The position numbers were made by a program, and so were the translations under genes. DNA of 57,791 nt from NCBI GenBank assembly GCA_013316135.1, contig WSNH01000001.1, positions 1 to 57,791 on the forward strand, in the 5' to 3' direction. Position 1 is the first letter of the stretch; each line of letters begins with the position of its first letter. The notes beneath the pieces are model-generated. The model was given only the letters and a program-made list of their open reading frames with translations, did no database searches and had not been told where the DNA came from. Of this stretch, positions 9,758-50,920 are shown piece after piece. This DNA comes from Clostridia bacterium. Its GTDB lineage: Bacteria; Bacillota; Clostridia; Christensenellales; UBA3700.

Positions 9758-9802
9758 AATCTCCTAGAAAAGTTGTTGGAATACAATATTATTTTAAGAC
9801 AG

Positions 9803-9835: not shown

Positions 9836-9870
9836 TCAAAAAATTATAGTCTAAATTTGGAAGAAATTTT

Positions 9871-10015: not shown

Positions 10016-10047
10016 ATGCGTAAAATTATGGCAATGGAGGAAAGAAA

Positions 10048-25370: not shown

Positions 25371-26579
25371 CTAATTACCGTCGCTTTGAAAGAATTTTTG
25401 GATTTTGTTGATTGCGTCTGCCTGTGCTTCCAAAGTTGCGTGAGTGTAGACGTCCAAAGTGGTGGACATTTTGCGGTGCCCAAGCCTTTGCTGAATGACT
25501 TTCGGGTTAACACCACACGCCAACAGTATTGTTGCGTGAGTATGTCTGAATGTGTGATATGAAACGCTTTTACCAAGGATTGAACGTATCTTTTCCAAAG
25601 CGTGGTTCAAACTTCTCATACTCATCCATTCGCCGTACTTGTTTCTACAGACGAAGTTCATTGTGTCGCCGCCATCTACAATGTAAGAGTTGCTGTCGTA
25701 AGAGTATGTTGGGTAATAGTCGCCCATATTATTACGTAAGAATGTCTGTCTGTCATACTCTTTTTTAAGAGCTTCCAACATCTCATCATCGAGCGGGATA
25801 GTTCTCACGGAGCCAAACTTCGGCGCGCTCATCTTTCTTTTTGGAGTACCTTTGTTAGCGAGCTGATTGACCTGTATATTTATTGTAACATTTTTTTGTA
25901 AAAAGTCAACCGAATCCCATGTCAGTCCCATAGTTTCAGAGATACGCAGACCGCAGTGCCAACCCAACATAAGCGGAATATAGTATGTGGTGCCAAATGG
26001 ATACTTTTCAACGATTTTTTTGAAGTCTTCTTGTGTAATAGTTGTTCTTTCTTTTGTCATAGGTATTGTTGAAGATAATGGTGGCGTAACGTGTACGGCT
26101 GGATCAACCTTAATAAACCCAAAGGGGAACACCGCGCATTGAAATGCAACGTGGATTGTCGCAAGAACACCGGTGATGTACGACTTTGACTTATCTCTAA
26201 ATCCGTTGATGAACGTCTGCAAAACAGACGGTGTTATAGAAGACAGGCGATACTTGCCAAGCGCAGGCTTAATATTTCGTTCAACGATATATGTGCGCCC
26301 TTGTAAGGTTGTATCCTTCCAGTGGTTCCTGCCATAGTTTTCAAGCCAGAAGTCAAGATAATCGCTTAAACTGACGGTAGAGGGAGTGAAGTGCTCGCCG
26401 CTTGCATAGTATTCAGCAAGAGCTTTTGTGCCCGCCTCAAGTGCTTCCTTCTTAGTTCGGAAGCCAGACTTGGTGGCGCTTTGCCGCTTGCCAGCAACAC
26501 TTGCAATTTCAAAACGGTACTCCCAATTGGGTCGTCGTCCAGTGTTCTTGTTTCTGTCTCTTACGTTAATTTTCGCCAT
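25371..26579 (-). CDS. int: tyrosine integrase
   Basis: 402 aa. N-terminal arm-binding and SAM-like domains are followed by a catalytic domain with Arg in WHCGLRISETMGL, HTFRHTHA, LGHRKMSTTLDVYTHAT (nucleophile Tyr). It is the last gene of the long minus-strand array and lies next to tmcAL, so it marks the left boundary of the integrated element. The attachment site is probably in 25278-25370 but no partner copy is in the window. Confidence 0.95.
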   Translation of the reverse strand: MAKINVRDRNKNTGRRPNWEYRFEIASVAGKRQSATKSGFRTKKEALEAGTKALAEYYASGEHFTPSTVSLSDYLDFWLENYGRNHWKDTTLQGRTYIVERNIKPALGKYRLSSITPSVLQTFINGFRDKSKSYITGVLATIHVAFQCAVFPFGFIKVDPAVHVTPPLSSTIPMTKERTTITQEDFKKIVEKYPFGTTYYIPLMLGWHCGLRISETMGLTWDSVDFLQKNVTINIQVNQLANKGTPKRKMSAPKFGSVRTIPLDDEMLEALKKEYDRQTFLRNNMGDYYPTYSYDSNSYIVDGGDTMNFVCRNKYGEWMSMRSLNHALEKIRSILGKSVSYHTFRHTHATILLACGVNPKVIQQRLGHRKMSTTLDVYTHATLEAQADAINKIQKFFQSDGN

Positions 26580-30534: not shown

Positions 30535-31668
30535 TTATAAATTGTGTTTCAGTAGGAATTGATTGCTGATACACTTAAAGCTGATGGTGTTGTCGTGGTC
30601 TCTTATTACAACACCTTCCCTAAGTGTATCGCACAAAGTAGATTTGCCGTCTGCGTAGGCAATCATTTCATCGACGGTAGGAAGCAGCTTAAAGTCCGCG
30701 TTGAGTATCGGAACCCATTTAATTCCGAAGTCGTGCATCACATCTGTGGCAATTGAGCTGTCCATTTTGACGCCGTCGATTACAAGGTTGAAGGAATAGA
30801 AGTCAATTCCCTTAAGACCATATTTGTTCTTCTGGATGCCCTCGCCAATGGTTTCGCCCTGTAATACAACAGTCGTTGCGCCGTACTTCTCCATAATTTT
30901 CAAGAGAACATTGCGAATGTCGTACTTTTGAGCGATTTGATGATAAACGTTCTCGTCGTAGAAACACTTCTGGGTGATGTCGGCTTGGCGGACGTTCCTT
31001 GAACACACCGCGAAGTCATATTTTCTTTTCTTTTCTTTTCTCAACCCGAAGCTCGTAGAGGTGCCGTCAATTTTTTCAGTGACGACCATTGACTTGTCCT
31101 TGTATGTATCGAGGACGAAAGGCATATTTTGCAATCTCGTTTCGTCCGTTTTGACTATCCAGTCAGGGAAGTTCTTGGGTTTCTTTTTGGGTGCAAGAAG
31201 TTTGTAAACGGTCTTTCTGAACCATTTGAACTTCATAAACCACAAGAAGACTTTGTTCTTGAACAGTTTCTTATGGCGCTGCTTAATTGCCGCCGCGGGG
31301 TCTTTAACCTGTTGCTTCGGAACTTCGTCCTCAATCTGCTTAATCTTAAGTACATCGGTTACGTCATCGCCGAGCACATAAGCTTTCCCGTCGTGCAAGA
31401 TTGAGAGAGGGAAGATGATGCCTTGCGAAATTACACCGCGCATCTTCATTGTCTTAATCTTATAGTGCTTCGATTCAAGGAATGCGAAGTCAGGGTTGTC
31501 GGCAGGCATAATGCTGTCAATCTCAACGTAGATTGCAAGATCGCCAACCTTAAATTCGTTTTTCTTCACAATACATTGCCAGCCAAGTATGCCAGCGAGT
31601 TCAATTTTGTCGGCTCCCTCAATAGGACGGAGCCACGCAATTTGTTCAATGTGAGCAAGCTTTCTCAT
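30535..31668 (-). CDS. RNA ligase, DRB0094/Rnl5-type
   Basis: ATP-dependent RNA ligase. It is 377 aa. An N-terminal OB-like domain (IEGADKIELAGILGWQCIVK ... GDLAIYVEIDSIMP) is typical of the Deinococcus Rnl family. The nucleotidyl lysine is in EKIDGTS (K about 199), with later QGETIGEG and EGVVIRD (motifs III-IV). A basic, hydrophobic insertion at about residues 130-165 is unusual. The family seals 3'-OH/5'-phosphate nicks, and the matching end-healing activity (Pnk-HD) is encoded 8 kb away. Confidence 0.88.
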   Translation of the reverse strand: MRKLAHIEQIAWLRPIEGADKIELAGILGWQCIVKKNEFKVGDLAIYVEIDSIMPADNPDFAFLESKHYKIKTMKMRGVISQGIIFPLSILHDGKAYVLGDDVTDVLKIKQIEDEVPKQQVKDPAAAIKQRHKKLFKNKVFLWFMKFKWFRKTVYKLLAPKKKPKNFPDWIVKTDETRLQNMPFVLDTYKDKSMVVTEKIDGTSTSFGLRKEKKRKYDFAVCSRNVRQADITQKCFYDENVYHQIAQKYDIRNVLLKIMEKYGATTVVLQGETIGEGIQKNKYGLKGIDFYSFNLVIDGVKMDSSIATDVMHDFGIKWVPILNADFKLLPTVDEMIAYADGKSTLCDTLREGVVIRDHDNTISFKCISNQFLLKHNL

Positions 31669-32557: not shown

Positions 32558-33322
32558 TTACTCCAATGTTGCGGGCATATTTCTCTTATGCTCCGATGCT
32601 TGGTGCATTTGCTCTATCTTAAGAGCAGTTTCATAATCGGTGTTTGACATACCACCGCTTATATATCCGTCGAGCGTAGCGTATGTAAACCCGAAACTGT
32701 CTTCATCGGTCTTACCGCACAGCCCGTCGGATGGTGTTTTGGTAACGTACTTTTTATTTAATCCGAACTCATCGGCAAGCAGGTCGCCGAGAGCCATAAC
32801 CTCTGTGCAGGTTAAGTGAGCGATAGGGTTGAAGTCGTAGGCGCTGTCGCCCCACTTGGTTGTCCAACCTATATAAGCTTCACTTGCATTACCCGTTCCG
32901 ATAACCCTGTATCCGAGCGTTTGTGCAACCGCATACAAAACCGTCATGCGAATACGGGGAGGGATATTTGTCTTTGCTTTGTCGGTAACTTTGGGGCAGT
33001 TCGCAACGAAGTCTCTTCCGATAGGTGTTTCTTCGATGCGGTTCTCTATAACGTGCAGAAGAGAGTTGTAGACGGTTTCAATGTTGACAATGCGGTGCTC
33101 AATACCGAGCGTCTTAACAATGTCAAGAGCATCGTCAATATCCTTTTGTGTGCCGTTCGGCATTAAGACACCGAACACGTTGTTGCCCCAAACTTTCTTT
33201 GCAAGCATCGCAACGACCGTGCTATCTTTACCGCCGCTTATTCCGAGTACAATGCCGCGGCAGCGTGTGGCTTCTTTGTATTGTTCAAGCCAGTTCAAAA
33301 TTTCCTTTAATTTAGTTTCCAT
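32558..33322 (-). CDS. nadE: ammonia-dependent NAD synthetase
   Basis: Amidates nicotinate adenine dinucleotide to NAD. It is 254 aa, the NH3-dependent short form. PP-loop GISGGKDSTVVA (about residues 26-37), GTGNASEAYIGWTTKWGDSA (about 147-166), and KTPSDGLCGKTDED near the C-terminus. Its start lies 16 nt inside the macro gene. Last gene of the five-gene NAD operon. Confidence 0.94.
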   Translation of the reverse strand: METKLKEILNWLEQYKEATRCRGIVLGISGGKDSTVVAMLAKKVWGNNVFGVLMPNGTQKDIDDALDIVKTLGIEHRIVNIETVYNSLLHVIENRIEETPIGRDFVANCPKVTDKAKTNIPPRIRMTVLYAVAQTLGYRVIGTGNASEAYIGWTTKWGDSAYDFNPIAHLTCTEVMALGDLLADEFGLNKKYVTKTPSDGLCGKTDEDSFGFTYATLDGYISGGMSNTDYETALKIEQMHQASEHKRNMPATLE

Positions 33323-33783
33323 ATTTCAACCTTCCATTCATCACCGGCAAATTCTTCCTCGATGATTTTCTTAACTATATTCCAATCGCCGCCACCAAGA
33401 CCGCAACCGATGTGGTCAGGGAAGCCAATCGTAAAGTCTTTATTAACAAGCTCTGTTGGTATGAGCATTTTAAGCTGTTGGCAACTCAACCTAAACATCT
33501 CATAGTTTGTGTGATTGATGCCACGGGGCAAGTAATGGAATTGTGCGAACATATTGGCAATGTAACGAGTATTGTCCTCGGAAACTGCACATATTTGAGC
33601 AACGCCCATTAAATATTCCAGCTTATACTGATTGCATACTTGCTTATATTTTTCAAAGACTTGAGGGTAGGTAGAGCGTATTTGCTTCGCTATACCCGAA
33701 CCCATAACGCCTTGGCAGTTCACTTGGTGACAGATAATATTGCAATTGCTTTTCAGTAAGTCGCCATTTTTATAAGTAACCAT
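33307..33783 (-). CDS. macro-domain protein
   Basis: 158 aa, single macro domain: GDLLKSNCNIICHQVNCQG, MGSGIAKQI, and C-terminal GIGCGLGGGDW. Such stand-alone phage-type macro domains bind ADP-ribose; some remove ADP-ribose from DNA or protein, and Poa1p relatives hydrolyse ADP-ribose 1''-phosphate, a by-product of tRNA splicing. Placement inside an NAD-recycling operon supports an ADP-ribose substrate. It shares one base with NAMPT and overlaps nadE. Confidence 0.9.
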   Translation of the reverse strand: MVTYKNGDLLKSNCNIICHQVNCQGVMGSGIAKQIRSTYPQVFEKYKQVCNQYKLEYLMGVAQICAVSEDNTRYIANMFAQFHYLPRGINHTNYEMFRLSCQQLKMLIPTELVNKDFTIGFPDHIGCGLGGGDWNIVKKIIEEEFAGDEWKVEIWKLN

Positions 33784-35276
33784 TAAAAGTTATCTCCGTA
33801 AAGTCTTTTTCTGATGTCGGCAAGGCTGTACTCGAGTACCATCTTGCCATCGATAAAGACCGCCTTTAAGGTATTGTCGGCACGATAGGTTGCTTTGAAG
33901 TCGTGTTCGTCTTCACTCGTTAACGCGCCGTCAGCCCCCGTTAAAACAAGCACACAGCCCTTGTGGGACTTTTTGAAGGAAGCCTCTTTGGGATTTTTGA
34001 AAATCATAATGGGCTTGCCGTCTTTGTCTTCAGCGTAGGTCGCCTTAATAGCGATGCCGAACGTATCTCTGGTGTATGGATTGAATCTCGGAATAGCCGC
34101 GTGTTCCTCATAGGACTCAAGGCACTGCATAGAGAAGCTACCAACACCAAGTGCAACGTTGCTTGCTGCAAAACCGTTGTTAACCAAAATGGTGTAAATC
34201 GATTCCGCTCTTTGAGGTGTGATGCTATCGCCGTATATAGCCTTAATATGGGGGTTCAGAACCTTGTAACCCTTTGAGTTGACTGTTCCACCGAACTGCT
34301 CCCAAAGATGGAATACAGTCTTTGTGACGACTTCTACGGGGTCGCCAGAGTCGCCGCGCACCAAGAGGCATCCGTTGTGTTCGAGGATTTCCTTCTTGCA
34401 CATTGGTAAGATGTTGTCCACCAAGTTCCAGTAATCGTAGCTGTCGCTTACCATACTAAAAGACGTGTTGGGATACGTTTCTGTGAGCAAACGCTTAATC
34501 ATTGTGATTTCGTCGCTGTCAACTGCAAAGTTACTGCACATTACGGAGTGTTCGGTTGACACCGAGCCAAAGCCGACTTCCTCTTTTTCGCAGTCGCAGT
34601 TGTAATATTTTTCCATATAATCTACCGCCGGAACCGTTGCTGTGTTCACGAAGGATAACAGCCAGCCTGCGGAAGATTTGTATGCGCTGCGCTTCGACTC
34701 TTGACCTCTCATAGAGAAGTCACCAAGAGCTTTTCTACGAGGGATATTGTCATCGCAACTCATATCGTAGAAGTGGTCTACGATTTTTCTGTACTTGTAG
34801 CCGACGTTTGCGGAAATCATAGCGTGCCACATTTCGCAGCTTATCACAGATTCCAAGGCATTTGTGAGCCAAGCAAAGTCGGGGTGGGTGTTACTTATCT
34901 CGAACATCGGAACGCCGATAGGAACGAGCGTTCCCTCTGCAAGAGCTTTAATCTCGATAGGAAGATAGCCCAAGTCGTGCAACTCTGCAACGCGCTCGAT
35001 GCCGTACAACCCCTCGCCGAGGGTGTTGTCGAGAAGATGTTTATATTCGCGTACAACGTCTTCCTTAGGACGGGAGAAGAAGAACTCGTTGAAGTCTTCG
35101 ATGAGATATTCTTTGATGAATGACTGCAAACCAAACATAATAAGGTGCTTATCATTTTTCAGCCTGCTCATTCTCGGCACAAAGTAGCTTACGACTTTCG
35201 TTATGCCTTTGGGGTATTGGTTCCAGTGAACTTGCTTATAGAAGTCACTCTCTAAAAGTGGGTTAATTCTGTACAT
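33783..35276 (-). CDS. nadV: nicotinamide phosphoribosyltransferase
   Basis: Makes NMN from nicotinamide and PRPP. It is 497 aa, full length. Compared with human NAMPT: GDFSMRGQESKRSAYKSSAG corresponds to the DFGYRG region, SVSTEHSVM holds the catalytic His, and LLVRGDSGDP corresponds to RPDSGNP. PRPP synthetase overlaps upstream by 14 nt and would supply its co-substrate. Confidence 0.93.
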   Translation of the reverse strand: MYRINPLLESDFYKQVHWNQYPKGITKVVSYFVPRMSRLKNDKHLIMFGLQSFIKEYLIEDFNEFFFSRPKEDVVREYKHLLDNTLGEGLYGIERVAELHDLGYLPIEIKALAEGTLVPIGVPMFEISNTHPDFAWLTNALESVISCEMWHAMISANVGYKYRKIVDHFYDMSCDDNIPRRKALGDFSMRGQESKRSAYKSSAGWLLSFVNTATVPAVDYMEKYYNCDCEKEEVGFGSVSTEHSVMCSNFAVDSDEITMIKRLLTETYPNTSFSMVSDSYDYWNLVDNILPMCKKEILEHNGCLLVRGDSGDPVEVVTKTVFHLWEQFGGTVNSKGYKVLNPHIKAIYGDSITPQRAESIYTILVNNGFAASNVALGVGSFSMQCLESYEEHAAIPRFNPYTRDTFGIAIKATYAEDKDGKPIMIFKNPKEASFKKSHKGCVLVLTGADGALTSEDEHDFKATYRADNTLKAVFIDGKMVLEYSLADIRKRLYGDNF

Positions 35277-36072
35277 TTAAGATACCTGCCCTGTATTTTT
35301 TTGTGACGATAAGCTTCGGGTGTGATACCGTACAAATACTGTCAGTTGTGAACACCTCGTCGATATAGTCGAACACTTCGCCTTTGAGAATGTTGTTCTC
35401 GCAATGGGAAACAACAAGCGTGATGTGCTCAACGCCACGTTTTCTTAATTCTTTTGCAGCCGACACAAAGGTGCCGCCGTAGCTGCATATGTCATCGCGA
35501 ATGATGACGCTCTTTGTTCCCTCGGTGAAGTTCATAAGCTCGTAGCCGTCGATGCGCCCTTCGCTGTTGCGATGTTTACTGCCAACGATGAAAGGATTGT
35601 CTGTTGGATCGAGTTGATAGCGTGGCGCATATTTCTTTGCCGCGCCGTTATCTGGGAACATTATGGTTGCGACTTTATCTTTCGGTGCAACGCTGAAAGG
35701 TAAGTCGGTTTCTTCAACACGATTGATGAGTGCCATTGCCACGTCGGAGTGGGGGTCAAGAACGAACACCTTGTTGAAGTTCATTGCGTTGATTGCTTCT
35801 GCAAAATACTTCAGCGTGAACAGCCTGTTACTGACGTTCCTGTCTTGTCTTGCGTGAGGAATGTATGGCATACAAAGATTGATGAGTAAGCCGTGGTGAT
35901 GTTCTTGAATGTGCCTTACAAGGCTCCACAAGCAGAACAGCTCTGCATCATTATCGTAGCACCACGTTATGTAGATAAATCCTCTCGCGGTCTCAATCGG
36001 CGGGATAGGACACTTAAGCGTGCCATCGCCGAACACCTCTTGTGTAACGATTGTGTTATCGATTTTAATCAT
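35263..36072 (-). CDS. prs: ribose-phosphate pyrophosphokinase-like protein (PRPP synthetase)
   Basis: 269 aa, shorter than the usual about 315. Key sites are present: CMPYIPHARQDRNVS, VFVLDPHSDVA and the PRPP loop VIIRDDICSYGGT. Likely supplies PRPP to NAMPT. Overlaps nicotinamidase by 4 nt and NAMPT by 14 nt. Phage-encoded Prs-NAMPT pairs are known. Confidence 0.9.
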   Translation of the reverse strand: MIKIDNTIVTQEVFGDGTLKCPIPPIETARGFIYITWCYDNDAELFCLWSLVRHIQEHHHGLLINLCMPYIPHARQDRNVSNRLFTLKYFAEAINAMNFNKVFVLDPHSDVAMALINRVEETDLPFSVAPKDKVATIMFPDNGAAKKYAPRYQLDPTDNPFIVGSKHRNSEGRIDGYELMNFTEGTKSVIIRDDICSYGGTFVSAAKELRKRGVEHITLVVSHCENNILKGEVFDYIDEVFTTDSICTVSHPKLIVTKKYRAGILNVQN

Positions 36073-36602
36073 TTCACTACCTCAACTTGGCAACTACGCA
36101 TTACTTCCAGCGCGGCATTGTGTTTCTCTTCGGTAAGCCCTGCGCACAAATCCTTGTGTACGATTATTTGCGCCTCTTTGAACGCGCCAATCATCGCAAG
36201 TACGTTCGATACAACGCAGATGTCGGTGCAGGTTCCGCAGAACTCTATCGCCTCGGGCTTCTCGCAAATTGTTTGAACGCCAACATACAAACTCGTTCCA
36301 CCGGAAAACGTTGATTTGTTTACAAAAGCAACTCGTGCCTTTTTATTTTCATCCGCCGCTTTAAGGATTTCACTGTTAACGCGCCAGCCTTCTGTCTGTG
36401 CGATGCAGTGTGGGACGGGAAGGTGCTTGCCTTCTCTGGTGTTGAGATAATCTTGGTTGTGGGTATCTCTCGTAAAGACGATTAACCCTTCAAACTTTGA
36501 GACATACTTCGCGACTTTTTTAACGATTGTCTGAGCCAACGGATTGGCTAACGAACCGTCTATGAAGTCGTTTTGCATATCGACAACAACTAATACTTTC
36601 AT
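36069..36602 (-). CDS. pncA: nicotinamidase / isochorismatase-family hydrolase
   Basis: 177 aa. DMQNDFIDG (catalytic Asp, residue 8) and FCGTCTDICVVSN (catalytic Cys) match nicotinamidases. It would convert nicotinamide to nicotinate, feeding the deamidated route that ends at NadE, while NAMPT uses nicotinamide directly, so the operon encodes parts of both routes. Its ATG overlaps the stop of a 53-aa gene. Confidence 0.87.
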   Translation of the reverse strand: MKVLVVVDMQNDFIDGSLANPLAQTIVKKVAKYVSKFEGLIVFTRDTHNQDYLNTREGKHLPVPHCIAQTEGWRVNSEILKAADENKKARVAFVNKSTFSGGTSLYVGVQTICEKPEAIEFCGTCTDICVVSNVLAMIGAFKEAQIIVHKDLCAGLTEEKHNAALEVMRSCQVEVVK

Positions 36603-38282: not shown

Positions 38283-39110
38283 TTAAGCACCAAGCTGCTC
38301 TTTGAACCACTGCCGCAGAACGTCAACCTTGATTTGCTCAAGCTTGTCGTAGGAAGATACGTTGCAGTCGGTTCCGTGTTCGTCAATATACTTATTTTTC
38401 ATCGCCGCGTTTTCATCGTCCAATTCCTTGGCGATTTTCAATGCGTCGGCGAGGGGAATGGTGTTAAGTTTTGCCTCTGTCATTAAGATAAGCGTCTGTT
38501 CGTCGTGAGTAGTCAAACACTGCTCAAATGGCATATCAGCAATATAGTTTTTCATAAATTCGTTAACACGGATGATATGATGGAGTTGTTTGCCGTCGTA
38601 TCCGTATTGGTCGATTTTATGCTTGATGGTAGGATAAGGGTGGCATAGGGCTTTGTATTTCTCATAGCTCATACCAGCCATTGTTTTAAGAGTTTGAGAA
38701 GGGTGACAGTGAACAAGCTCCTCAGCAAGGCGACGCAATTTTCTCCAATGCTTTGCATATTTGTCTGCGACGATAAAATACTTAGTGAAGAGAATTTCGA
38801 CGAAGTTAACGTTCTGCTTCTTAAACGTCTCAAACATAATGCGAATGTCCTTCAGATCAATATGTTCTTTATTTTCACGTTCACAGGTGGTAGAGATAGG
38901 GGCTTTCCCGCGGCAGAAGTCATCGAACGAAGGCAGCACGATAACCTTTGTATCAACATCGCTTTGATACTGCGCGCTGTACACATCGAGGTCATAGTTC
39001 TGGCTGCCCTGTAAGAACACACCAAAAACTTCGTGTCCCATAAGGCAAGCTTCTCTGTAGTGCTGCTGCACTTTTGTACGGATAAGGCTATTGCGTTCTT
39101 GTTTGTTCAT
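38283..39110 (-). CDS. RlaP-like nucleotidyltransferase (RNA-repair pathway, pol-beta fold)
   Basis: 275 aa from the Met at 39110, 1 nt after the upstream stop. The nucleotidyltransferase core is visible: VFGVFLQGSQNYDLDVY, then SDVDTKVIVLPS with the DxD metal pair. The family is annotated as DNA-polymerase-beta-like and associated with RNA repair. Linkage here to Pnk-HD and RNA ligase fits. Its activity is not known with certainty. Confidence 0.8.
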   Translation of the reverse strand: MNKQERNSLIRTKVQQHYREACLMGHEVFGVFLQGSQNYDLDVYSAQYQSDVDTKVIVLPSFDDFCRGKAPISTTCERENKEHIDLKDIRIMFETFKKQNVNFVEILFTKYFIVADKYAKHWRKLRRLAEELVHCHPSQTLKTMAGMSYEKYKALCHPYPTIKHKIDQYGYDGKQLHHIIRVNEFMKNYIADMPFEQCLTTHDEQTLILMTEAKLNTIPLADALKIAKELDDENAAMKNKYIDEHGTDCNVSSYDKLEQIKVDVLRQWFKEQLGA

Positions 39111-39111
39111 T

Positions 39112-39522
39112 TTAATGCTCCAAAATGCAAACTGCCCGAAGGGTAAGGTATGTGTGTTCGGTATCCTCATAGCCTTCTTGGTAAAGAACAAAAGATTTTA
39201 AGAGGATATCCGTATTCGGGTGATTTAGAAGATGATTGAAGTCTACTGTGAACCGAGACATATAATCGTACTCACCGGTTAAATATTGCGGCTCTAACTC
39301 CTCATCGTAATTGTGTTCGTCGGCAGCTTCTTTTAAGGCTTCGTATTCCCAAGAAGACTTATCTGTTTTAATCTTTTTGAGCTGAGCCTCAAACTCTTCA
39401 ACAGCGTCTTCCTTATTGTTAAAGAGCAACGTTTCGTTATCGCGCTCATCATTCGTCGCCCAGTCTAACGTAAGTTTGAAGATTACTTTTGATACATTTT
39501 TTGTGGATGTTAAAATTTCCAT
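39112..39522 (-). CDS. hypothetical acidic protein
   Basis: 136 aa from the Met at 39522 (2 nt after the Pnk-HD stop). Glu- and Asp-rich centre, no recognised fold. Sandwiched between Pnk-HD and RlaP with nearly zero spacing, so it may belong to the repair set. Confidence 0.6.
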   Translation of the reverse strand: MEILTSTKNVSKVIFKLTLDWATNDERDNETLLFNNKEDAVEEFEAQLKKIKTDKSSWEYEALKEAADEHNYDEELEPQYLTGEYDYMSRFTVDFNHLLNHPNTDILLKSFVLYQEGYEDTEHTYLTLRAVCILEH

Positions 39523-39524
39523 AG

Positions 39525-40421
39525 TTATGCTCCAGCAACGTCGCACTGATGAAAGGCATTTAATAAATGTGACAATTCATCGGGGAGCGCTGCGCTATAT
39601 TTTGTATTGAGAAATGGATCCATATGTACGTTTATAAGCCAATAAATTAAAGCTCTTTGTTTGGTATGTAACCCAAGCGTTTCTTCATAGCCGATAGCAA
39701 AGTAACTGCCCACATTGTGGTGGTTGTAGAAGTGTGCAATATCACACGGCTCGCCACGGCTATTCTTAAAGGCTTTTACAAACTTCTTACCGATGTCATG
39801 AAGACTTGCGGCAACAAGTAATGTGATTGCAACACCTTTACCTTGACGCCTACCTTGCTGCAATTTTGCCGCCTCGGTCATAACGTTTAAGGTGTGTTCT
39901 TTAACAGTGTTATTGTGATGAGGATTATCGTGTTCGCAGTTAAGCCAGTCCTCATAATTACTACGCTTGTAGGGCTCGTCATTCAGTTTGAACTCAATAC
40001 TATCCCAGCCTTCGTCGTAATAGGGAGGCTGGAAGTTGAGAAGCATACGCTTAATTACGTTCTCACCAACATTACGATTTCTACCAGTATCTCTTGCAAC
40101 GCAAGTTTCGTATCTTGCCCATACTACATAGGCAATCTTCTCGCAAGGGATTGTGATGCTTGATAAGAGGTGCTTACGCTTTTTGCGGCTGATGTTAGTT
40201 GCGTCATATATGATATTCTTTCCGTCTTTCAATGCGGCGATGGTGCGTCTTTGCATTTCCTCAAATATTTTTGCGGGGTCATCCTGTATCGTTTCGTCGC
40301 CATAGAATTCTTTACGTATTGCATCGGATGATAAGATAGTGGTGTTGCTATCGGCGAGCTGACGTGCAACTTCACTTTTGCCAGACCCCGGCAAGCCTAT
40401 GAGCATATAAAACTTAACCAT
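39525..40421 (-). CDS. polynucleotide kinase fused to HD-domain phosphohydrolase (Pnk-HD)
   Basis: 298 aa from the Met at 40421, overlapping the upstream gene by 8 nt. N-terminal kinase: YMLIGLPGSGKSEVARQ P-loop, then YDATN and RDTGRNRNVGE. C-terminal HD domain: HTLNVM ... AASLHDIGKKF ... HNVGSYFAIGY. Bacterial HD-Pnk enzymes with the opposite domain order phosphorylate 5'-OH and remove 2',3'-cyclic or 3' phosphates from RNA, giving ends an Rnl ligase can seal. An end-healing role is therefore likely. Confidence 0.85.
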   Translation of the reverse strand: MVKFYMLIGLPGSGKSEVARQLADSNTTILSSDAIRKEFYGDETIQDDPAKIFEEMQRRTIAALKDGKNIIYDATNISRKKRKHLLSSITIPCEKIAYVVWARYETCVARDTGRNRNVGENVIKRMLLNFQPPYYDEGWDSIEFKLNDEPYKRSNYEDWLNCEHDNPHHNNTVKEHTLNVMTEAAKLQQGRRQGKGVAITLLVAASLHDIGKKFVKAFKNSRGEPCDIAHFYNHHNVGSYFAIGYEETLGLHTKQRALIYWLINVHMDPFLNTKYSAALPDELSHLLNAFHQCDVAGA

Positions 40422-40776
40422 AGACCACCTCACCGAAAATTGCATACTGAATGATTACATCGGCGTCTTCGGCATCAATGGATGAGGGATCAATCTTTCC
40501 TTCGTGGAGGACATCGAGACCACCTTCGCCGATAGCCTTTGCAAGTCCAGCAAGGAACTTGTCCAGTGTCAGTTCATATGTTTCATCTTCCTCGGAGTCG
40601 TGCAGCTTAAGGGTGCCGCCGCGAGATATTTGTTCGCTGGCATACTCGCCAAGATAATCGCCAACAACTTCGGCGTCATCGCACCAATATGTAATGCCAC
40701 CTTCTAAGGCGGTAGCCATTATATCGTCTATACACTCATTGTCGAGTTCGACTTTGTAATTGATGTTAAGTTCCAT
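40414..40776 (-). CDS. hypothetical acidic protein
   Basis: 120 aa from the Met at 40776 (GGAG 9 nt upstream). No domain recognised. An operator copy at 40788-40800 lies just ahead of the ribosome-binding site, so this is probably the first gene of the repair/NAD block. Confidence 0.6.
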   Translation of the reverse strand: MELNINYKVELDNECIDDIMATALEGGITYWCDDAEVVGDYLGEYASEQISRGGTLKLHDSEEDETYELTLDKFLAGLAKAIGEGGLDVLHEGKIDPSSIDAEDADVIIQYAIFGEVVYG

Positions 40777-40801
40777 AGCACGCTCCGTGTCTAAATATGT
40801 T

Positions 40802-41401
40802 TTAATAGCTCTTAATTTTATCGCCAAAGAGCTTCTTGGCGGCTTTGATGTAATATTCGCTTAATTCGTCGTCAGCCATCTCGTTGTTGAAGAATTCGTC
40901 GATACAGACAGGTTCTTGCCCTTGCATTTCAGGAGGCATATCCGAATACCATTCTTTCAAGTATGCGACATAAATGAGCACTTCCTTGGTGGGATAGTCG
41001 TCAATGCCGATGAGAGGAGAGATGCCGCTGTCGGTTAAGACATTAGACAATTCGCCCCAAGTGATGTCCCAATATTCGTCGTTATCGTCAAGCGCTTCCT
41101 GCCAATGGTTGATCATATTGTCGATAACATCGATGGGAAGAACCTTTACAGCTTCTTCAACGTCATCGCCGAATTCTTCTTTCGCTTGTGTCAAGAAGTC
41201 TTCGCGTTGATATTCTAAGTCAACTTCCTTTGATATCATTTCACGGTTGTCGTAAATGAGCGCAACGAGAGCATCCTCAAAGTCGTAGTATGCCTTATCT
41301 TTGAGGTGAGATACGGCGGGATTTTTATCTATGAACTCCGCAATCTTTTGTCTGAGAGAACCATCGGTGCATTCATCCCAAAATTTATTGTTTTTTATCA
41401 T
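40802..41401 (-). CDS. hypothetical protein
   Basis: 199 aa, acidic and mainly helical, start MIKNNKFWDECTDGS with GGAGG 6 nt upstream. It overlaps the next gene by 17 nt. No domain recognised; ends within the operator region before 40776. Confidence 0.6.
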   Translation of the reverse strand: MIKNNKFWDECTDGSLRQKIAEFIDKNPAVSHLKDKAYYDFEDALVALIYDNREMISKEVDLEYQREDFLTQAKEEFGDDVEEAVKVLPIDVIDNMINHWQEALDDNDEYWDITWGELSNVLTDSGISPLIGIDDYPTKEVLIYVAYLKEWYSDMPPEMQGQEPVCIDEFFNNEMADDELSEYYIKAAKKLFGDKIKSY

Positions 41402-41729
41402 CGTTACCTCCGAGTATCATACTTTCCCAAAGCTCAGATATTTCTTCTTGTGATACGCCTTGATATTCTTTTGGCTCAAGCATTTGACGAGAGAATGACC
41501 ACCCGCAATTTTTTGTGTGAAGGATACCAAAATCTATGGTTTGGTCGCGCTCGACGTAGTCTACAATTAACGTTTGACCGCAGAGTTCATCCATATCTGA
41601 ACTCCAACCACAAGGGACGTTAATATCTGCCCCGAAATCGTGAATTAAATCGTCAAGGCTGCGAACGGTAACTTCGTCACCAGCAGTGAGATTATCAAAT
41701 GCCTCTTCAGACATATAAGTATCGTACAT
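41385..41729 (-). CDS. hypothetical protein
   Basis: 114 aa from the Met at 41729, chosen because AAGGAG lies 6 nt upstream. The sequence has a small beta-rich look (EVTVRSLDDLIHDF, QTLIVDYVERD). Function unknown. It follows the DUF6273 gene by 47 nt. Confidence 0.6.
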   Translation of the reverse strand: MYDTYMSEEAFDNLTAGDEVTVRSLDDLIHDFGADINVPCGWSSDMDELCGQTLIVDYVERDQTIDFGILHTKNCGWSFSRQMLEPKEYQGVSQEEISELWESMILGGNDDKKQ

Positions 41730-41776
41730 TGTTAGCTCCTTCACGCACCATTCGGTGCTGATTTTTAGATTTTAGA

Positions 41777-42501: not shown

Positions 42502-42951
42502 TTACCTCTTAATATTTTTTATCGCCTCGGTGGCGAGCCTATCACATTCATTATTGAATGCGTTATCGGAGTGACCTTTAACTTTCACGAACTTAACCTT
42601 ATGAATTTTGGTCAGTTCAATAAGTCTCAGCCATAAATCTTTGTTTTGTACGGGCTTTCTTCCGCTCGTTCGCCAAGCGGAGTTTTGCCAGTTTTCCAAC
42701 CATTTTTGGTTGAAAGCATTTACAACATAAGCGGAGTCGCTATACAGTGTAACGCGGCTTGGAGATTTGAGAGCGAGGAGGGCATTGATAACCGCAGCTA
42801 ATTCCATTCTATTGTTAGTGGTTTCAGCTTCGCTGCCGCTGAGTTTCTTGGAGTGATCGCCACACATCAATATGGCACCCCAACCGCCAGCCCCGGGATT
42901 GCCAGAGCAGGCGCCGTCCGTATAAATTGTTACATCATACATATTCGCCAT
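42502..42951 (-). CDS. rnhA: ribonuclease HI
   Basis: 149 aa. DEDD active site visible: VTIYTDGACSGNPG, TNNRMELAA, LYSDSAYVV, and the C-terminal CDRLA. It cleaves the RNA strand of RNA-DNA hybrids. It is the first gene downstream of the reverse transcriptase, 550 nt away, and could process its cDNA products. Confidence 0.95.
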   Translation of the reverse strand: MANMYDVTIYTDGACSGNPGAGGWGAILMCGDHSKKLSGSEAETTNNRMELAAVINALLALKSPSRVTLYSDSAYVVNAFNQKWLENWQNSAWRTSGRKPVQNKDLWLRLIELTKIHKVKFVKVKGHSDNAFNNECDRLATEAIKNIKR

Positions 42952-43503
42952 TGCAAATCTCCATTTTGTTTTGTGTTCTTACAATCCATGTAATATACTG
43001 GGTGAGAAGGATTGAATGCCTGTTGCAACAGGGGTCTTTGGACATTATTTGGATTGTTCTTGGGGAAAAAAAGTCAAGTAAAAGTTCAAATAAATATGTG
43101 GCAAACTAATAAAATGATTTGGTTTCTTCGTTTCCCGACAGACCGAGTAGCGCGCTGACGGCGGAAGTAAGCTTGCTCAGATGAAACTCTCCCTCTGGCT
43201 GCATCCTCCGTCCTTCCGACATTTTGGTACTTCAGATATAATCTAAAGCTCTACACGAAGGTAGACATAACGATTGTAAGTAAAAGCTTAAACACGAAAA
43301 GGGGGCGGCGGCAAGCTCCAGAGGAGAGCCGCCGTTAAAATCAATTTATTATCATAACTTAAACTCGATTTCGCAGGAATCGGTTTAAGTTATTATCATA
43401 AAATGATTTTTGTTACGATTTAGGTCGTTACATCCGATATAACCAGATGCCCAATGTTATGTATAAAATTGGCATATCTATTTAAGCTTTTTGGGTTTTA
43501 AGG
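42952..43503 (-). ncRNA. gene-free region with structured leader motif (copy A) and two strong hairpins
   Basis: Three structures on the minus strand. (1) Hairpin 43354-43393: an 11-bp and a 5-bp helix with one bulge and a 7-nt loop. (2) GC-rich hairpin 43304-43334 followed by C and T runs, a likely terminator of the RT transcript. (3) Motif A, 43218-43248: CTTTAG pairs with CTGAAG, then TACCAAAATGTC, preceded by a small CTAC/GTAG hairpin. The ATG in the motif opens a 38-codon frame to 43106 (MSEGRRMQPE...), possibly spurious. RNase HI follows. Confidence 0.55.
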
Positions 43504-44652
43504 TTAACCGGCACGGAGAACATCTTTGATAGTTTGTTCAACGTCCTTATTAAATTTTGCACTGTACGACTTAATAATCGTCTCAATTGTCGCGCCTTCT
43601 ACCATCTTATAGTAAGAGATAAGCCCTTGAAGGTGCTGTGTATCTTCGAGGCTCCATACATTGCCGTTCTTCTCGTCGTTCATAAACGAGAACAGCATTG
43701 CCTTGAAAACCTTTTTCTTGGAATGACCGATTGTGATTTGGTTATCGCTGTTGAGCATCACGCCCAAGTTCCAGTTTCGACCAGCGGAACTTCCGTATCT
43801 CGTCTTTGTCATGTTGAGAGAGAAGGGGGCGTGGAACTTGTTAGCAACTATGTCTACGATGGTGTCTTGAACCTCGCGCCAATTAAACGCCAAGTCGCTC
43901 GAAAGGATGATATCGTCCGCATATCTTGTGTAGACGAGGTGTGGAGTCATCTCTCTCGCGGTCTTTGCAATGTAGTGGTCTATGGGTATCATAAACAAGT
44001 TGGTAAGGGTAGGGCTAATGGGGGTGCCCTGCGGCAAACCGTTGTTGAGATAGCATATCGACAATGCTTTTACCAGAGCTTCTCTTCCGTTAGGTCTTGC
44101 GACGATTTCGTTGAAGGGGAAGATGGTTTCAAGCTGCGAGATGATAAATTCGGGCTTCGAGCTTCCAAAGAAGTCGTGGAAGTCGAGCTTCAAGAACCAG
44201 CGCGACTTATTGCGCTGATGTCTTTTAACTGCATCGATAGTGCTTCTGCCTTTTACATAGGCAAATGCCGCGGTATGATAGCTTGCATAAAGTTTCTTCT
44301 CAAAAAGATATTTGAGTTCCCTCAGTGCGTTCATTAAATCGTCAAGCGGTGCATTTATCTGACGAAGACCGCCGCTACGCTTGGGGATTTTGAAACTCCT
44401 ATACAGAGTGGACTTGTCTTCGGTGTTGATGAGATTGATGTACTTTTCGTTAAATCTTACAAGAGCCGCAATCATTTCGTCAAAATCCGTATCGTCGAGG
44501 AGTTTTTGCGGTGTGTTGTTTCTGAACACGGTCTTAGTATCGTGAGTGTCTTCCATCTGGCGCTCAAACACGGACTCGTTCATTCCGTTCAAAATATCGT
44601 CAAAAGAAATCTGATGGAACTTTTGACTTACGGGTACTGTTATGTACGGCAT
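43504..44652 (-). CDS. reverse transcriptase, retron / group-II-intron-like
   Basis: 382 aa. RT motifs in order: FKIPKRSGGLRQINAP, LKLDFHDFFGS, NNGLPQGTPISPTLTNLFM, and catalytic YTRYADDIILSS (about residues 240-251). NLGVMLNSDNQITIGHSKKK matches the segment after motif 5. There is no DGR-type IGNxxSQ motif and no maturase or endonuclease domain, which favours a retron-like or unassigned bacterial RT. It is preceded by a 300-nt structured leader and followed by RNase HI. Confidence 0.88.
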   Translation of the reverse strand: MPYITVPVSQKFHQISFDDILNGMNESVFERQMEDTHDTKTVFRNNTPQKLLDDTDFDEMIAALVRFNEKYINLINTEDKSTLYRSFKIPKRSGGLRQINAPLDDLMNALRELKYLFEKKLYASYHTAAFAYVKGRSTIDAVKRHQRNKSRWFLKLDFHDFFGSSKPEFIISQLETIFPFNEIVARPNGREALVKALSICYLNNGLPQGTPISPTLTNLFMIPIDHYIAKTAREMTPHLVYTRYADDIILSSDLAFNWREVQDTIVDIVANKFHAPFSLNMTKTRYGSSAGRNWNLGVMLNSDNQITIGHSKKKVFKAMLFSFMNDEKNGNVWSLEDTQHLQGLISYYKMVEGATIETIIKSYSAKFNKDVEQTIKDVLRAG

Positions 44653-44953
44653 TGTTTGTTCTCCTAATAAACTGTTTTTTAGATTGTCTTCCGTGGAACC
44701 TTCAGAAGTACTATTTGCAACTGGTGTTGGTCAGGTAATTCGGAAGAAAATAAAAATAATTTCCTTAAATGTGGGTGGGATTTCGGTGACCCAACCCTTG
44801 TTGGGCAGTCGAACGGTGGGTCTTTGTTTCCAAGGACGTCATTTGCTGCTCTCGCAGGATGTGACTCCATCGGTCGCTCCTCCCTTGGTCTCCCGGACAT
44901 TTTGGTACTTCAGATATAACCTAAAGCCTTATCGAAAGATAAGCATTACTTTA
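44653..44953 (-). ncRNA. structured leader of the reverse transcriptase gene (copy B)
   Basis: 301 gene-free nt between thiF and RT. Motif B at 44896-44926 is nearly identical to copy A (CTTTAG/CTGAAG helix, TACCAAAATGTC) and is preceded by a CTTATC/GATAAG hairpin. Further on, CCCAAC pairs with GTTGGG (about 44800). The ATG inside the motif opens a 73-codon frame (44679-44900, MSGRPREERP...). It could be a retron-like template RNA or a regulatory leader; strand is inferred from neighbours. Confidence 0.55.
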
Positions 44954-45634
44954 TTAGTTTCGGTATGCGTCTACTTCAAAGTTGAACGCATCAATTGTTA
45001 CAATCTTTTTCAACTCGTTCTTGCGAACGAAGTTCATAAAGTTCGATACTCCATACGAGCAAACAATTCTTACCGTAGGAGCAACGCCCATTTCAACGTG
45101 GCACGCCGTCATAGGAGTGGACTCCTGAGCTTCTTCGTGAGAGAACTCCATACTTTTGAGAAAGTTCTCAACGCTTTTCGGATCGTGCCAATCCGCAGCG
45201 TAGTGTTGTGCATCTTCAAGCCTTGTTCTAAAATCAAACATTGCTTTGATGGACATATTTGCTTTGTTCTTCGTCGCAATCGTGCGGCGCAGGTCAATGT
45301 TGTCAACGCAAAGGAAGACATATCCGTCAAGCCTTGTCTTTTCAGTCCAGCCGTCGCTGCAAATTTTTATATCGTTCTTCGCTTCGGGGTTGATAGCGAG
45401 TAACATATCTCTTACGGCTTCCGTCTTTAAGCGTTTGATGTCAGCGTTCACAAACATCTGGTTTGCAAGATTGTGAGCCGATACAACGTCGAAATCGTAG
45501 AGGGATATTTTCGTGAGCCCAAGGCGAATGAGCAACTCCGCGACCGTCGAACCAACGGAGCCACACCCAATGATGTGGCAACGTTTCGTGACGTCCAACG
45601 GGTTGAAGTAATCCTGAGATTTTACAAGGTTCAT
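44954..45634 (-). CDS. ThiF/E1-like adenylating protein (PRTRC-type)
   Basis: 226 aa from the Met at 45634, 1 nt after the JAMM stop. Rossmann core: CHIIGCGSVGSTVAELLIRL, LYDFDVVSAHNLANQ, and FLCVDNIDLRR. It would adenylate the C-terminus of a ubiquitin-like protein. No CxxC zinc pairs; a candidate thioester Cys is in PMTACHVEMG. Gene order Ubl, E2-like, JAMM, E1 matches the ThiF-containing PRTRC cassette. Confidence 0.85.
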   Translation of the reverse strand: MNLVKSQDYFNPLDVTKRCHIIGCGSVGSTVAELLIRLGLTKISLYDFDVVSAHNLANQMFVNADIKRLKTEAVRDMLLAINPEAKNDIKICSDGWTEKTRLDGYVFLCVDNIDLRRTIATKNKANMSIKAMFDFRTRLEDAQHYAADWHDPKSVENFLKSMEFSHEEAQESTPMTACHVEMGVAPTVRIVCSYGVSNFMNFVRKNELKKIVTIDAFNFEVDAYRN

Positions 45635-45635
45635 A

Positions 45636-46544
45636 TTAGTAATGTCCTCCGTATCTGCCGTAGATGCCGGCGTAGTAGTCATCATCGTCGGGGTCGTCAT
45701 CATTAAGCAAACTTCCTTGACGCGCCTCAGCTTTTGCGCCGCGTTTCGGCGAGGTGGACTTGGGTGTCGTCGTAGTTTCGCTATGGCTGTTACCACCATA
45801 GCTGCCACCGCCGTAGCTGTTACCACCGTAGTTTCCGCCGCTGTATCCGTAAGATTCCGTTACAACTTTTTTGGCTTCATCAAGGAAGTCGGTAAGCCAA
45901 TCGCAATCTTCGACTACAATTTTGATTTCGTCGGCGGTTGTAGACTTCGAGTAAAGCGCATTATTTTGCAGGTCGTAGATTTCACCACTTATGTCGCCGC
46001 GCTTGTTGAAGATAAGGAAGATGTAGAAGAGGTCTGACGTAGCGGAAGGGGTACCGAAATTATTGAGGATGTTGTGACGATACGTCATATCAACTCCGGA
46101 CGGCGTAACTCCCATATTTACGTGAGAGTGACCGTGGAAGCGAAGCACATTGAACGTATCGTTATCAAGAGCGTCGAGCCATTTCTCGTACTCCGTCTGG
46201 TCGGAGATGACCGTCGCACCGGTAACTTTGTGAGGGAAGATGAGTACGTCCTTAATGTAGAACGCATCTGCTGCGGTTCTCTCAACAACTCCGTGCCATT
46301 CGACTTCGGTGGAGTAGGTGTGAACCAGCGCAAAAATCTTCATATATGCTTGCGCCGAGAATGTTATTGTTGCTTTACGGTCGTCTTTAACTTCTTTTAA
46401 TTTGAAGTTAAGTGTGACGCCGTCGGCTTGGTCGTTCTGGAATTTTCTTTTCTTTAAGTTGCGGCTTTCTACCAGCAACTGTGCTTGTGCCGAGCGCAAA
46501 AACTCGGCGATTTCCGTTTCGGTTGCAAAAATTTTCTTAGCCAT
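45636..46544 (-). CDS. JAB/JAMM metalloprotease (deubiquitinase-like, PRTRC-A type)
   Basis: 302 aa from the Met at 46544. A perfect JAMM motif HSHVNMGVTPSGVD (HxH, seven residues, S, two residues, D) lies near residue 150 with an upstream glutamate in EVEWHGVVE. The C-terminal 70 residues are a low-complexity Gly/Tyr/Ser then acidic tail. It likely trims or removes the Ubl. The start overlaps the E2-like stop by 8 nt. Confidence 0.87.
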   Translation of the reverse strand: MAKKIFATETEIAEFLRSAQAQLLVESRNLKKRKFQNDQADGVTLNFKLKEVKDDRKATITFSAQAYMKIFALVHTYSTEVEWHGVVERTAADAFYIKDVLIFPHKVTGATVISDQTEYEKWLDALDNDTFNVLRFHGHSHVNMGVTPSGVDMTYRHNILNNFGTPSATSDLFYIFLIFNKRGDISGEIYDLQNNALYSKSTTADEIKIVVEDCDWLTDFLDEAKKVVTESYGYSGGNYGGNSYGGGSYGGNSHSETTTTPKSTSPKRGAKAEARQGSLLNDDDPDDDDYYAGIYGRYGGHY

Positions 46545-47919
46545 TCGTAGTACCCTCATTCTCGTTATTCTCTCTGATGTACGCAAGGAATTCGCGGAGC
46601 GTCATTTCTTTGCCATTGTCTGCAAGTATACATCTACACGAACTGTCGAGATAGCTCTGCACGTCTTCAACGAATTCGCGAATGACAGTTGCGTCTCCAA
46701 AGTTGATATTTTTGACCGCCGCGATTGTTTGCTCGATAGCCATATCCCAGTTACCCTGTTTCAAGTAGTTGTTAATATACGTTTCGTTGCCACCGAGGCA
46801 AGCATGGTGATACAGATGCGGGTGGGGCATATGAGTTCCAGAGAATTGCCCCGACGTAGAACCTCTGCGCGCTATAATGCTCGCAAGGTTTACCAAACGG
46901 AACACACCCTCAACTCGAAACACGCCCTTCCCATCAGCAAACACGGCGTGGAAGATATCTTTGATGTCTTTTGGCGCGCGACCTATCGAGGAAGACGAGT
47001 TTTTATACAGCCTCATAAATTCGTCGGCGTCAAAATATTCAATTGTTTCAGTAACGCAATAATCCATCACGTTGCCGTCGCTATTTTGCTGAGTGTTAAT
47101 AATGCTTATTTGCTTGTGCATCATAAAGAATTTATATACGCTATCATCGGTGCTGTCGCCCTGAGCTTCAAGAGCCGTTAAGTTAACGCTGCTCTGTTCG
47201 AGCTTGTTGAGCAGACGAGCAATTTCTTCCTGATATTGTGCTATGTTTCTGTGGTAATCTTCACACGCACTTTTCAGTGTAAGAATTTGCTTTTTGCGGT
47301 ATCCGTCATTCCAACCGATAAGAATTTTCTTGAACCTCGCGGCTTGGAAGTCGTAATTTGCGCAAAGAGTATTGATGATGTTGTTGAATGCGCTGGCATC
47401 CTTTTTGCTTATCGCCCTGAACAAAGCTGTTTCGTCGTCGCTCATTTCCTCGGCGAAGTACCAAGGCAATACTCTGAACATCGACGAACAAAGCATATCT
47501 ATCCAGCGTTCGGTCGGCTGTCTTACAAAGATAACCGTACTTTTTAACTCTGTGTTCGCATAAACGCGAGTTTCCGATGCTGCCGTAAGAAACGGGGCGA
47601 CAGGATAGGGAGGGGTATCCAATGCAACCCAACCATCTTCATTAACGGTAGGCAATTGTGCTCCGCGCCGCGCGGATACAATATAGAGTTCAATGCCGTT
47701 CTCTTTGGCTTGCTGTGCATAATAATTCCCGTTGTTGTATTCGGAGAACTGATTGGTGTAAACCTTAATCGGTCTTATCGTTTCAATTTCGCCCTGATGG
47801 TGTTTCAGGGCGATGAAACGTAATGTTGCTCCGAGGGTAACGCTACCCAGAGGGGAAGAATCGTTGCCAAAGAAGACGTTGGCATTTGAACTCGTAATGA
47901 TAGTGTTTACGCAGTCCAT
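46537..47919 (-). CDS. E2-like / PRTRC-B-like protein
   Basis: 460 aa. Conserved-looking block HMPHPHLYHHACLGG (about residues 362-376) resembles the HP...CLG active-site region of bacterial E2-like proteins, with the Cys as possible thioester acceptor. The centre (about 190-270) is a coiled coil. Position between the Ubl and JAMM genes supports an E2 or PRTRC-B role; assignment rests on context plus this motif. Confidence 0.65.
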   Translation of the reverse strand: MDCVNTIITSSNANVFFGNDSSPLGSVTLGATLRFIALKHHQGEIETIRPIKVYTNQFSEYNNGNYYAQQAKENGIELYIVSARRGAQLPTVNEDGWVALDTPPYPVAPFLTAASETRVYANTELKSTVIFVRQPTERWIDMLCSSMFRVLPWYFAEEMSDDETALFRAISKKDASAFNNIINTLCANYDFQAARFKKILIGWNDGYRKKQILTLKSACEDYHRNIAQYQEEIARLLNKLEQSSVNLTALEAQGDSTDDSVYKFFMMHKQISIINTQQNSDGNVMDYCVTETIEYFDADEFMRLYKNSSSSIGRAPKDIKDIFHAVFADGKGVFRVEGVFRLVNLASIIARRGSTSGQFSGTHMPHPHLYHHACLGGNETYINNYLKQGNWDMAIEQTIAAVKNINFGDATVIREFVEDVQSYLDSSCRCILADNGKEMTLREFLAYIRENNENEGTTNG

Positions 47920-50914: not shown

Positions 50915-50920
50915 AAATGA

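Follow-up and report, generated by a model that had tools for sequence, protein, structure and literature searches.

A mobile NAD operon of a Clostridia bacterium that probably represents a deamidated variant of NARP1

The operon and its mobile element

The subject of this study is a cluster of five genes for nicotinamide adenine dinucleotide (NAD) metabolism in a stretch of 57,791 nucleotides from a Clostridia bacterium, hereafter called the window, which forms positions 1 to 57,791 of contig WSNH01000001.1 (assembly GCA_013316135.1). The source is a draft genome of 226 contigs, and the window's contig ends at position 57791. The genes follow each other in the transcription order pncA, adps (prs-like), the gene for a NAMPT-like protein, a macro-domain gene and nadE, with successive overlaps of 4, 14, 1 and 16 nucleotides (Table 1). 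An initial annotation of this DNA had described five genes overlapping by 1-16 nucleotides, and the open reading frames, their family scores and the overlaps were all confirmed. It had also called the operon the tightest cluster of the element, but several neighbouring reading frames at 39112-41744, if their longest-frame starts are taken, share 17-32 nucleotides with the next one. The same five genes occur in the same order in three viral contigs (L003-L005), four of them occur in a fourth (L006), and a human faecal phage record (L007) carries all five in a changed order. Judged by this recurrence of the gene set in L003-L007, the grouping exceeds chance.

The operon is accessory and mobile, because a tyrosine integrase gene (25371-26579) adjoins chromosomal genes and because the NAMPT-like gene is sparsely distributed: it was found in 1 of 46 genomes of the host's family, and a match to it in 4 of 396 genomes of the host's order. 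Its placement on a mobile element by the initial annotation is thereby upheld. The element is likely to be a prophage; no capsid (head) or terminase gene was seen among the window proteins scanned, which represented part of the window's reading frames.

Table 1. Genes of the NAD operon and diagnostic sites in the variant Namat, with window coordinates
Feature	Position	Strand	Predicted role and basis
pncA	36069..36602	-	Predicted nicotinamidase, nicotinamide to nicotinic acid; Isochorismatase PF00857, 81 bits
adps	35263..36072	-	Predicted to make ADP-ribose pyrophosphate; carries the annotation ribose-phosphate pyrophosphokinase; phrog_619, 207 bits
Variant Namat (NAMPT-like)	33783..35276	-	Predicted nicotinate ADP-ribose transferase, nicotinic acid plus ADP-ribose pyrophosphate to nicotinic acid adenine dinucleotide; phrog_448 (nicotinamide phosphoribosyltransferase), 551 bits
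Macro-domain protein, Poa1p-like	33307..33783	-	Macro PF01661, 31 bits; phrog_335, 145 bits
nadE	32558..33322	-	Predicted ammonia-dependent NAD synthetase, nicotinic acid adenine dinucleotide to NAD; TIGR00552, 190 bits, above cut-off
Ala213 codon	34638..34640	-	At Asp215 of SPbetaL1 Namat (nicotinamide-amide contact); sequence alignment
Ser240 codon	34557..34559	-	At Ala242 of SPbetaL1 Namat (nicotinamide pocket); sequence alignment
Selectivity-clamp helix region	34062..34142	-	Residues 379-405; insertion between GSF and TRD

Kinship with Adps and Namat, and the nicotinamide pocket

In the NARP1 pathway, Adps makes ADP-ribose pyrophosphate (ADPR-PP) and Namat joins nicotinamide to ADPR-PP to give NAD, so that the adenylyltransferase is skipped (PMC12774641). 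Among solved structures, the NAMPT-like protein of the window is closest to Namat (9w5x/9w5w, E ~6e-119), with HdNadV and human NAMPT ranking lower. Its AlphaFold2 model (pLDDT 91.3) superimposes on Namat 9w5w over 466 residues with a root-mean-square deviation of 1.6, and a structure search with this model gave the same ranking (Z 45.5 for Namat, 42.7 for HdNadV and about 41 for human NAMPT).

Namat homologues for comparison were taken from IMG/VR, from GTDB genomes (the best 80 of 167 relatives) and from named phages, and they were divided by the residue at position 215 of the SPbetaL1 Namat into an Ala/Ser (A/S) type and an Asp/Glu (D/E) type. The 109 A/S-type loci comprise 1 named phage record, 28 IMG/VR records and 80 GTDB loci, the window not being counted, and there are 49 D/E-type loci. 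The classification left out L001, L002 and L008, which derive from the bacterium's own genome, and L021-L024, which lie on the same contigs as L003-L006.

An adps gene is found nearby in 103 of the 109 A/S-type and 46 of the 49 D/E-type loci; in four viral loci of the Asp/Glu type (L053, L060, L061 and L077) it lies downstream of namat and not upstream. The prs-like protein of the window clusters with the validated Adps of SPbetaL1, apart from 10 Prs sequences including that of E. coli, and this split has an SH-aLRT support of 98. Its score of 64 bits is far below the Prs cut-off of TIGR01251 (113 bits). The tree was built from 22 of 57 de-duplicated A/S-type sequences, 25 of 45 D/E-type sequences and the window protein, and its internal detail is rough because long branches are present. 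An RQDR motif was seen in 57 of 102 A/S-linked and 6 of 48 D/E-linked Adps sequences and in 2 of 10 Prs sequences; such counts are too loose to separate Adps from Prs, and we therefore relied on the tree. The operon thus has the two components that mark NARP1, namely an Adps homologue distinct from Prs and a Namat homologue encoded beside it.

Where the window enzyme departs from Namat is the nicotinamide pocket. Asp215 of the SPbetaL1 Namat hydrogen-bonds nicotinamide, and the D215A substitution lowers NAD production 8.1-fold (PMC12774641). This contact, a feature of NARP1, is absent from the window enzyme, which has an alanine at the place. With the window included, residue 215 is Ala in 107 and Ser in 3 of 110 A/S-type sequences, against Asp in 47 and Glu in 2 (L060 and L061) of the 49 others, and residue 242 is Ser in all 110 A/S-type sequences, against Ala in all 48 readable D/E-type sequences. 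Human NAPRT has a serine at the place equivalent to Asp215, which its authors linked to nicotinate specificity (PMC4442680); a similar remark is made in PMC10907753.

The pocket type is linked to the presence of pncA and nadE, which was scored with hidden Markov models built from operon members (E < 1e-3); these models also recover the divergent copies of both genes in phage G. Both genes are near the namat gene in 88 of the 109 A/S-type loci, one of them in 19 and neither in 2, one of the latter being a 3.8-kb contig (L089) and the other a 43-kb record with nadE elsewhere and no pncA match (L037). By contrast, pncA or nadE was found in 0 of the 49 D/E-type loci. A second locus set, recruited by an alignment led by the Namat of phage phAss-1 (the best 80 of 522), held 79 Asp loci, all with Ala at residue 242 and with neither gene, plus one locus of the Ala type, L236, in which pncA, adps and nadE are all present. 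Six of these 79 Asp loci repeat earlier proteins and 73 are new, which brings the total to 0 of 122 non-redundant Asp/Glu-type loci with pncA or nadE.

These findings bear on the view that the operon is an ordinary NARP1 pathway, in which nicotinamide and ADPR-PP would yield NAD directly while pncA and nadE would act as independent helpers that remove inhibitory nicotinamide or boost the Preiss-Handler pathway of the host. The window enzyme does share the fold and core of Namat and keeps the equivalents of Phe189, Arg192 and Arg306; moreover, a crystal structure of human NAMPT contains nicotinic acid (6ta0), so that one residue alone may not discriminate. However, both Asp215 and Ala242 are changed in all A/S-type sequences, and pncA and nadE are both missing from every Asp-type locus. 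We therefore regard an ordinary NARP1 pathway as very improbable.

In our judgement, the operon probably specifies a NARP1 pathway that is complete and runs by a deamidated route. NAD would be split by NADases into nicotinamide and ADP-ribose (ADPR); PncA would convert the nicotinamide to nicotinic acid, and Adps would convert ADPR and ATP to ADPR-PP. The variant Namat would then join nicotinic acid to ADPR-PP in a single step, giving nicotinic acid adenine dinucleotide (NaAD), and NadE would amidate NaAD to NAD, no nicotinamide mononucleotide (NMN) adenylyltransferase being needed. The macro protein would feed in further ADPR from 1''-substituted ADP-ribose. We infer each of these reactions, and ADPR-PP as the donor, from the observed gene set, linkage, residue changes and kinship, together with the linkage to a regulator in bacteria described below. 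The initial annotation had proposed that the operon mixes the NAMPT route with the deamidated route, but a single deamidated route fits better because the residue that contacts the nicotinamide amide is gone from the enzyme. The host NMN adenylyltransferase that it had called for would be dispensable, since the prs/NAMPT pair groups with Adps and Namat, for which the use of ADPR-PP and the skipping of this step are described in the available text of PMC12774641.

The catalytic residues of PncA and NadE are conserved. The nearest solved relative of PncA is the nicotinamidase of P. horikoshii (1ilw/1im5), and residues D8, D46, H48, H65, K96 and C129, which from nicotinamidase structures we take to be the catalytic and metal positions, are each shared by 98-100 of the 100 homologues from such operons. 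All 97 NadE homologues keep the P-loop SGGxDS, and we assume that this loop plays its usual role. The macro protein matches structures of the ADPR-1''-phosphate phosphatase Poa1p (6lfq-6lfu), of the DarG type (5m3i) and of BT1257, and has H19, N22 and Q81 in 25 of 25 homologues. Reversal of DarT modification, which had been suggested for it, is not supported, in view of its Poa1p likeness, a score of 72 bits against a curated DarG cut-off of 250 bits, and Gln81, which aligns with what we take to be the catalytic Lys position of DarG-type enzymes. Its His19 and Asn22 were matched, by eye only, to His23 and Asn26, the residues named for Poa1p in PMC12846349. A macro gene accompanies 21 of 109 A/S-type loci, 3 of 49 D/E-type loci and, in the second set, 13 of 79 Asp loci; being found in a minority of both types, it is an optional NARP1 accessory. 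By analogy, it probably supplies ADPR by hydrolysing 1''-substituted ADP-ribose: a different NARP1 operon has RyDEP as its source of ADPR (PMC13232231), and in phage Adele a macro protein resembling Poa1p has been noted beside NARP1 (PMC12846349).

The sugar-nucleotide donor and the origin of the variant

The published Namat clamp consensus, GSX-Phi-X-Phi-X-Phi-TRD, is uninterrupted (PMC12774641). In the window enzyme it is broken by an insertion, the spacer between GSF and TRD being 14-26 residues long in 109 A/S-type sequences as opposed to 5-6 in 44 D/E-type sequences. The clamp residues themselves are retained in the A/S type (R40 in 108 of 110, F392 in 108 of 109 readable, T398, R399 and D400 in 109 of 109), the aromatic residue at clamp position 3 is kept, and an aromatic residue directly precedes TRD in 105 of 109. 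Since the consensus is broken, the use of ADPR-PP is argued here from descent, from the partner enzyme and from the clamp residues.

The A/S type forms a single clade (SH-aLRT 100) nested among Asp-type Namats in trees of de-duplicated rows (66 of 156). Inside this clade, Ala has changed to Ser in L041/L042 and in L062, and the gene order varies: nadE and pncA follow namat in L007, L034, L039 and L072, and L027 begins with the macro gene. L236, which has a canonical clamp, branches beside the A/S clade (support 93/89), inside the Asp-type diversity. Phage phAss-1 (L195; OQ749652), a TAG-recoded phage of the human gut, has the order pncA, prs, nampt, hypothetical gene, nadE, where the gene in macro's place (4784-5203, minus strand) encodes a hypothetical protein of 139 residues. 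The phAss-1 Namat has Ala at 215, Ser at 242 and the canonical clamp GAYTYQYVTRD, and is 41% identical to the SPbetaL1 Namat and 31-36% identical to five members of the A/S clade. It joined this clade in 0% of bootstraps, while an approximately unbiased (AU) test did not reject a single clade (p 0.514); no close relatives of it were found among viral contigs. The bootstrap tree left out the long branches L015, L019, L020 and L062, and the tree with L236 left out further rows as well as phAss-1.

It should be noted that several observations weigh against the deamidated form of NARP1 or against its use of ADPR-PP. The residue switch appears to be mostly one evolutionary event followed by long conservation, and the loci are therefore not independent tests of the linkage. 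In phAss-1 the switch to Ala may have arisen a second time, although the AU test leaves room for one clade. Among faecal phage fragments, two have pncA and a further two have nadE, and the available sequence around them shows none of the remaining operon genes. As to the donor, the insertion breaks the Namat consensus and could have changed donor choice, the SPbetaL1 Namat also makes NMN from phosphoribosyl pyrophosphate (PRPP) in vitro (PMC12774641), and the related NadV 9ke8 (Z 42.7) was solved with NMN. Lastly, PnuC and NadR genes come straight after nadE in L025 (11191-12947, plus strand) and in L026, taken to be its near copy; they would add a route to NAD from ribosides on top of the one from ADPR.

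An alternative is that the prs-like protein makes PRPP, that the NAMPT-like enzyme makes nicotinic acid mononucleotide (NaMN) from nicotinic acid, and that host NadD and the NadE of the element complete the path through NaAD to NAD. Besides the clamp insertion and the retained PRPP activity of the SPbetaL1 enzyme, this alternative can draw on the host draft genome, which has another NAPRT-family match besides the operon gene, a NadD-like gene with a score below cut-off, and a NadE that is glutamine-type as judged by its length (a frame of 647 residues). No further isochorismatase-family match was found in the draft genome, and no Prs above cut-off, though 14 of 16 compared genomes have one; we take the absent Prs to be a gap in the draft assembly. 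Against the PRPP route stand the clustering of the prs-like protein with Adps, the near-complete retention of F392, R399, D400 and R40 and the canonical clamps of the early-branching L236 and phAss-1. Moreover, of the 31 viral records of the A/S type, most of them fragments, just 5 matched the nucleotidyltransferase family PF01467 and 26 did not, whereas the phage G control was positive. The five, which are the exceptions to the lack of an adenylyltransferase, are L025 and L026 with their NadR, L033, L038, and L006; in L006 a cytidylyltransferase-like protein of 137 residues follows nadE and a second PF01467 match lies in the record. We therefore consider the PRPP route unlikely.

Regulation, genomic surroundings and place among known systems

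In bacteria, the operon is frequently accompanied by a regulator. Among 69 reading frames flanking bacterial operons, 28 matched NrtR_WHD, 28 matched NUDIX and 20 matched AraR_C. A search with two such proteins placed an NrtR-like homologue near 55 of the 80 GTDB loci, and near 44 of the 55 whose downstream sequence extends for 4 kb or more. It did so near a single one of the 29 viral A/S loci and near none of the 49 D/E loci. In the five proteins tested, the closest NCBIfam model is an ADPR-responsive repressor, with scores under its cut-off (141-158 of 400 bits); for this reason, and since 20 of the 69 frames match AraR_C, the ligand is not certain. In S. sobrinus, ADPR frees NrtR from DNA (PMC12735969). 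A likely ADPR sensor next to an operon with ADPR as its proposed substrate would be a coherent arrangement. The NrtR-like genes of L103 and L140 lie at 10434-11321 and 9381-10286, respectively. By eye, the L103 protein seems to keep an intact Nudix box, and it might hydrolyse ADPR as well as sense it.

The initial annotation had related the operon to the NAD-reconstitution sets of phage counter-defence, and similar gene sets were indeed found in phages. By analogy with them, the phage use is likely to be survival of NAD-depleting defence, counter-defence being plausible, whereas ADPR recycling under an NrtR-type sensor is a plausible bacterial use. The same biochemistry could even serve solely as ADPR recycling cargo for host metabolism, a role compatible with the deamidated form of NARP1. 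That the operon is common in gut bacterial genomes, often beside an NrtR-like gene, favours such a role; that an NrtR gene is missing beside the operon in many viral contigs, and that related NARP1 counters NADase defences (PMC12774641, PMC13232231), speaks against it. We view an exclusive recycling role as possible, if somewhat doubtful.

The surroundings of the operon contain further genes of interest. A protein of 1278 residues (10946-14782, plus strand) has a TIR_2 domain (39 bits) and BspA-type leucine-rich repeats; the TIR protein reported at 11 kb is thus present, but it lies on the chromosomal side, and no functional link to the operon was found. Genes for an RNA ligase (30535-31668), a nucleotidyltransferase-like protein (38283-39191) and a kinase-HD protein (39525-40445), all on the minus strand, flank the operon and look like an RNA-repair set; in phage TAC1 (L020), too, genes for RNA ligase, prs, nampt and a macro-family protein lie side by side. 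The element also encodes a reverse transcriptase (43504-44652, minus strand; PF00078, phrog_2825/1423), and no direct repeat of at least 50 bases, a sign of a diversity-generating element, was present within 42900-46600. Two tandem tRNA-like RNAs of 117-118 nucleotides (50797-51037, minus strand), missed by ARAGORN, match the Rfam tRNA model if a large insert is allowed for; they also show a weak match to Y RNA-like YrlA, at 32.6 bits against a gathering threshold of 69. They adjoin the gene for a phrog_850 RNA-binding protein (DUF2828/DUF7788; 49132-50688, minus strand), with which they possibly form a Ro60/Y-RNA-like pair.

Among known systems, the NARP1 of Bacillus phage SPbetaL1 (OQ921341) shares with the window adjacent Adps and Namat, the same fold and R40, F392, T398, R399 and D400. 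It differs in Asp215, Ala242 and the uninterrupted clamp, and the window adds pncA, nadE, the macro gene and the predicted NaAD route. The NARP1 of Paenibacillus foliorum likewise places an Adps-Namat module in a bacterium, but the available text of PMC12774641 contains neither nadE, nicotinamidase, nicotinic acid nor any word beginning with deamid-. RyDEP of phage DyoEdafos (PMC13232231) and the Poa1p-like macro protein of phage Adele (PMC12846349) are accessories that may feed ADPR to Adps, as the window macro protein may; pncA and nadE are unmentioned for these two operons in the available text, whereas the window combines the macro gene with the deamidated route. In its annotation (JN638751), phage G has an isochorismatase-family hydrolase, pncB, a KptA-like protein, nadD and nadE, i.e. 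a PRPP route with its own adenylyltransferase. It thus shares with the window a phage-borne deamidated route with such a hydrolase and nadE, but has pncB and nadD where the window has adps and the variant Namat. The window operon does not belong to the Preiss-Handler pathway with its dedicated NAPRT and NadD, as it lacks NadD and its enzyme is Namat-like. The KVP40-type pair of NadV and NadM, which we presume to be the one named NARP2, also has a NAMPT-family enzyme in phages. This pair, however, uses PRPP, makes NMN and needs an adenylyltransferase; the available text of PMC9503650 describes NadV with NadM/NadR and mentions neither NadE nor a nicotinamidase. The KVP40-like ValKK3 enzyme (L015) keeps the Asp and has no adps nearby.

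No description of a nicotinate/NadE form of NARP1 was found in the literature searched, the scope of which did not include the founding NARP1 paper; in the article on phAss-1 (PMC10607447), nicotinamidase occurs a single time, as a table entry. The deamidated variant is therefore apparently undescribed, a novelty that we regard as provisional. We are inclined to believe that its central activity is new, namely a nicotinate ADP-ribosyltransferase that would form NaAD, and hence NAD, without a mononucleotide or an NMN/NaMN adenylyltransferase, in phages as well as in gut bacteria, where an ADPR-responsive NrtR-type switch would act on NAD breakdown. If this is correct, the operon would define a NAD route that avoids the adenylyltransferases of the known salvage routes, it would account for pncA and nadE beside Adps and Namat in phages and gut Clostridia, and it would tie a predicted substrate switch to two pocket residues. 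NARP1-type chemistry would then reach beyond a phage weapon to the regulated recycling of ADPR in bacteria, and many 'nicotinate/nicotinamide phosphoribosyltransferase' annotations in the Lachnospiraceae and their relatives may be misnamed.

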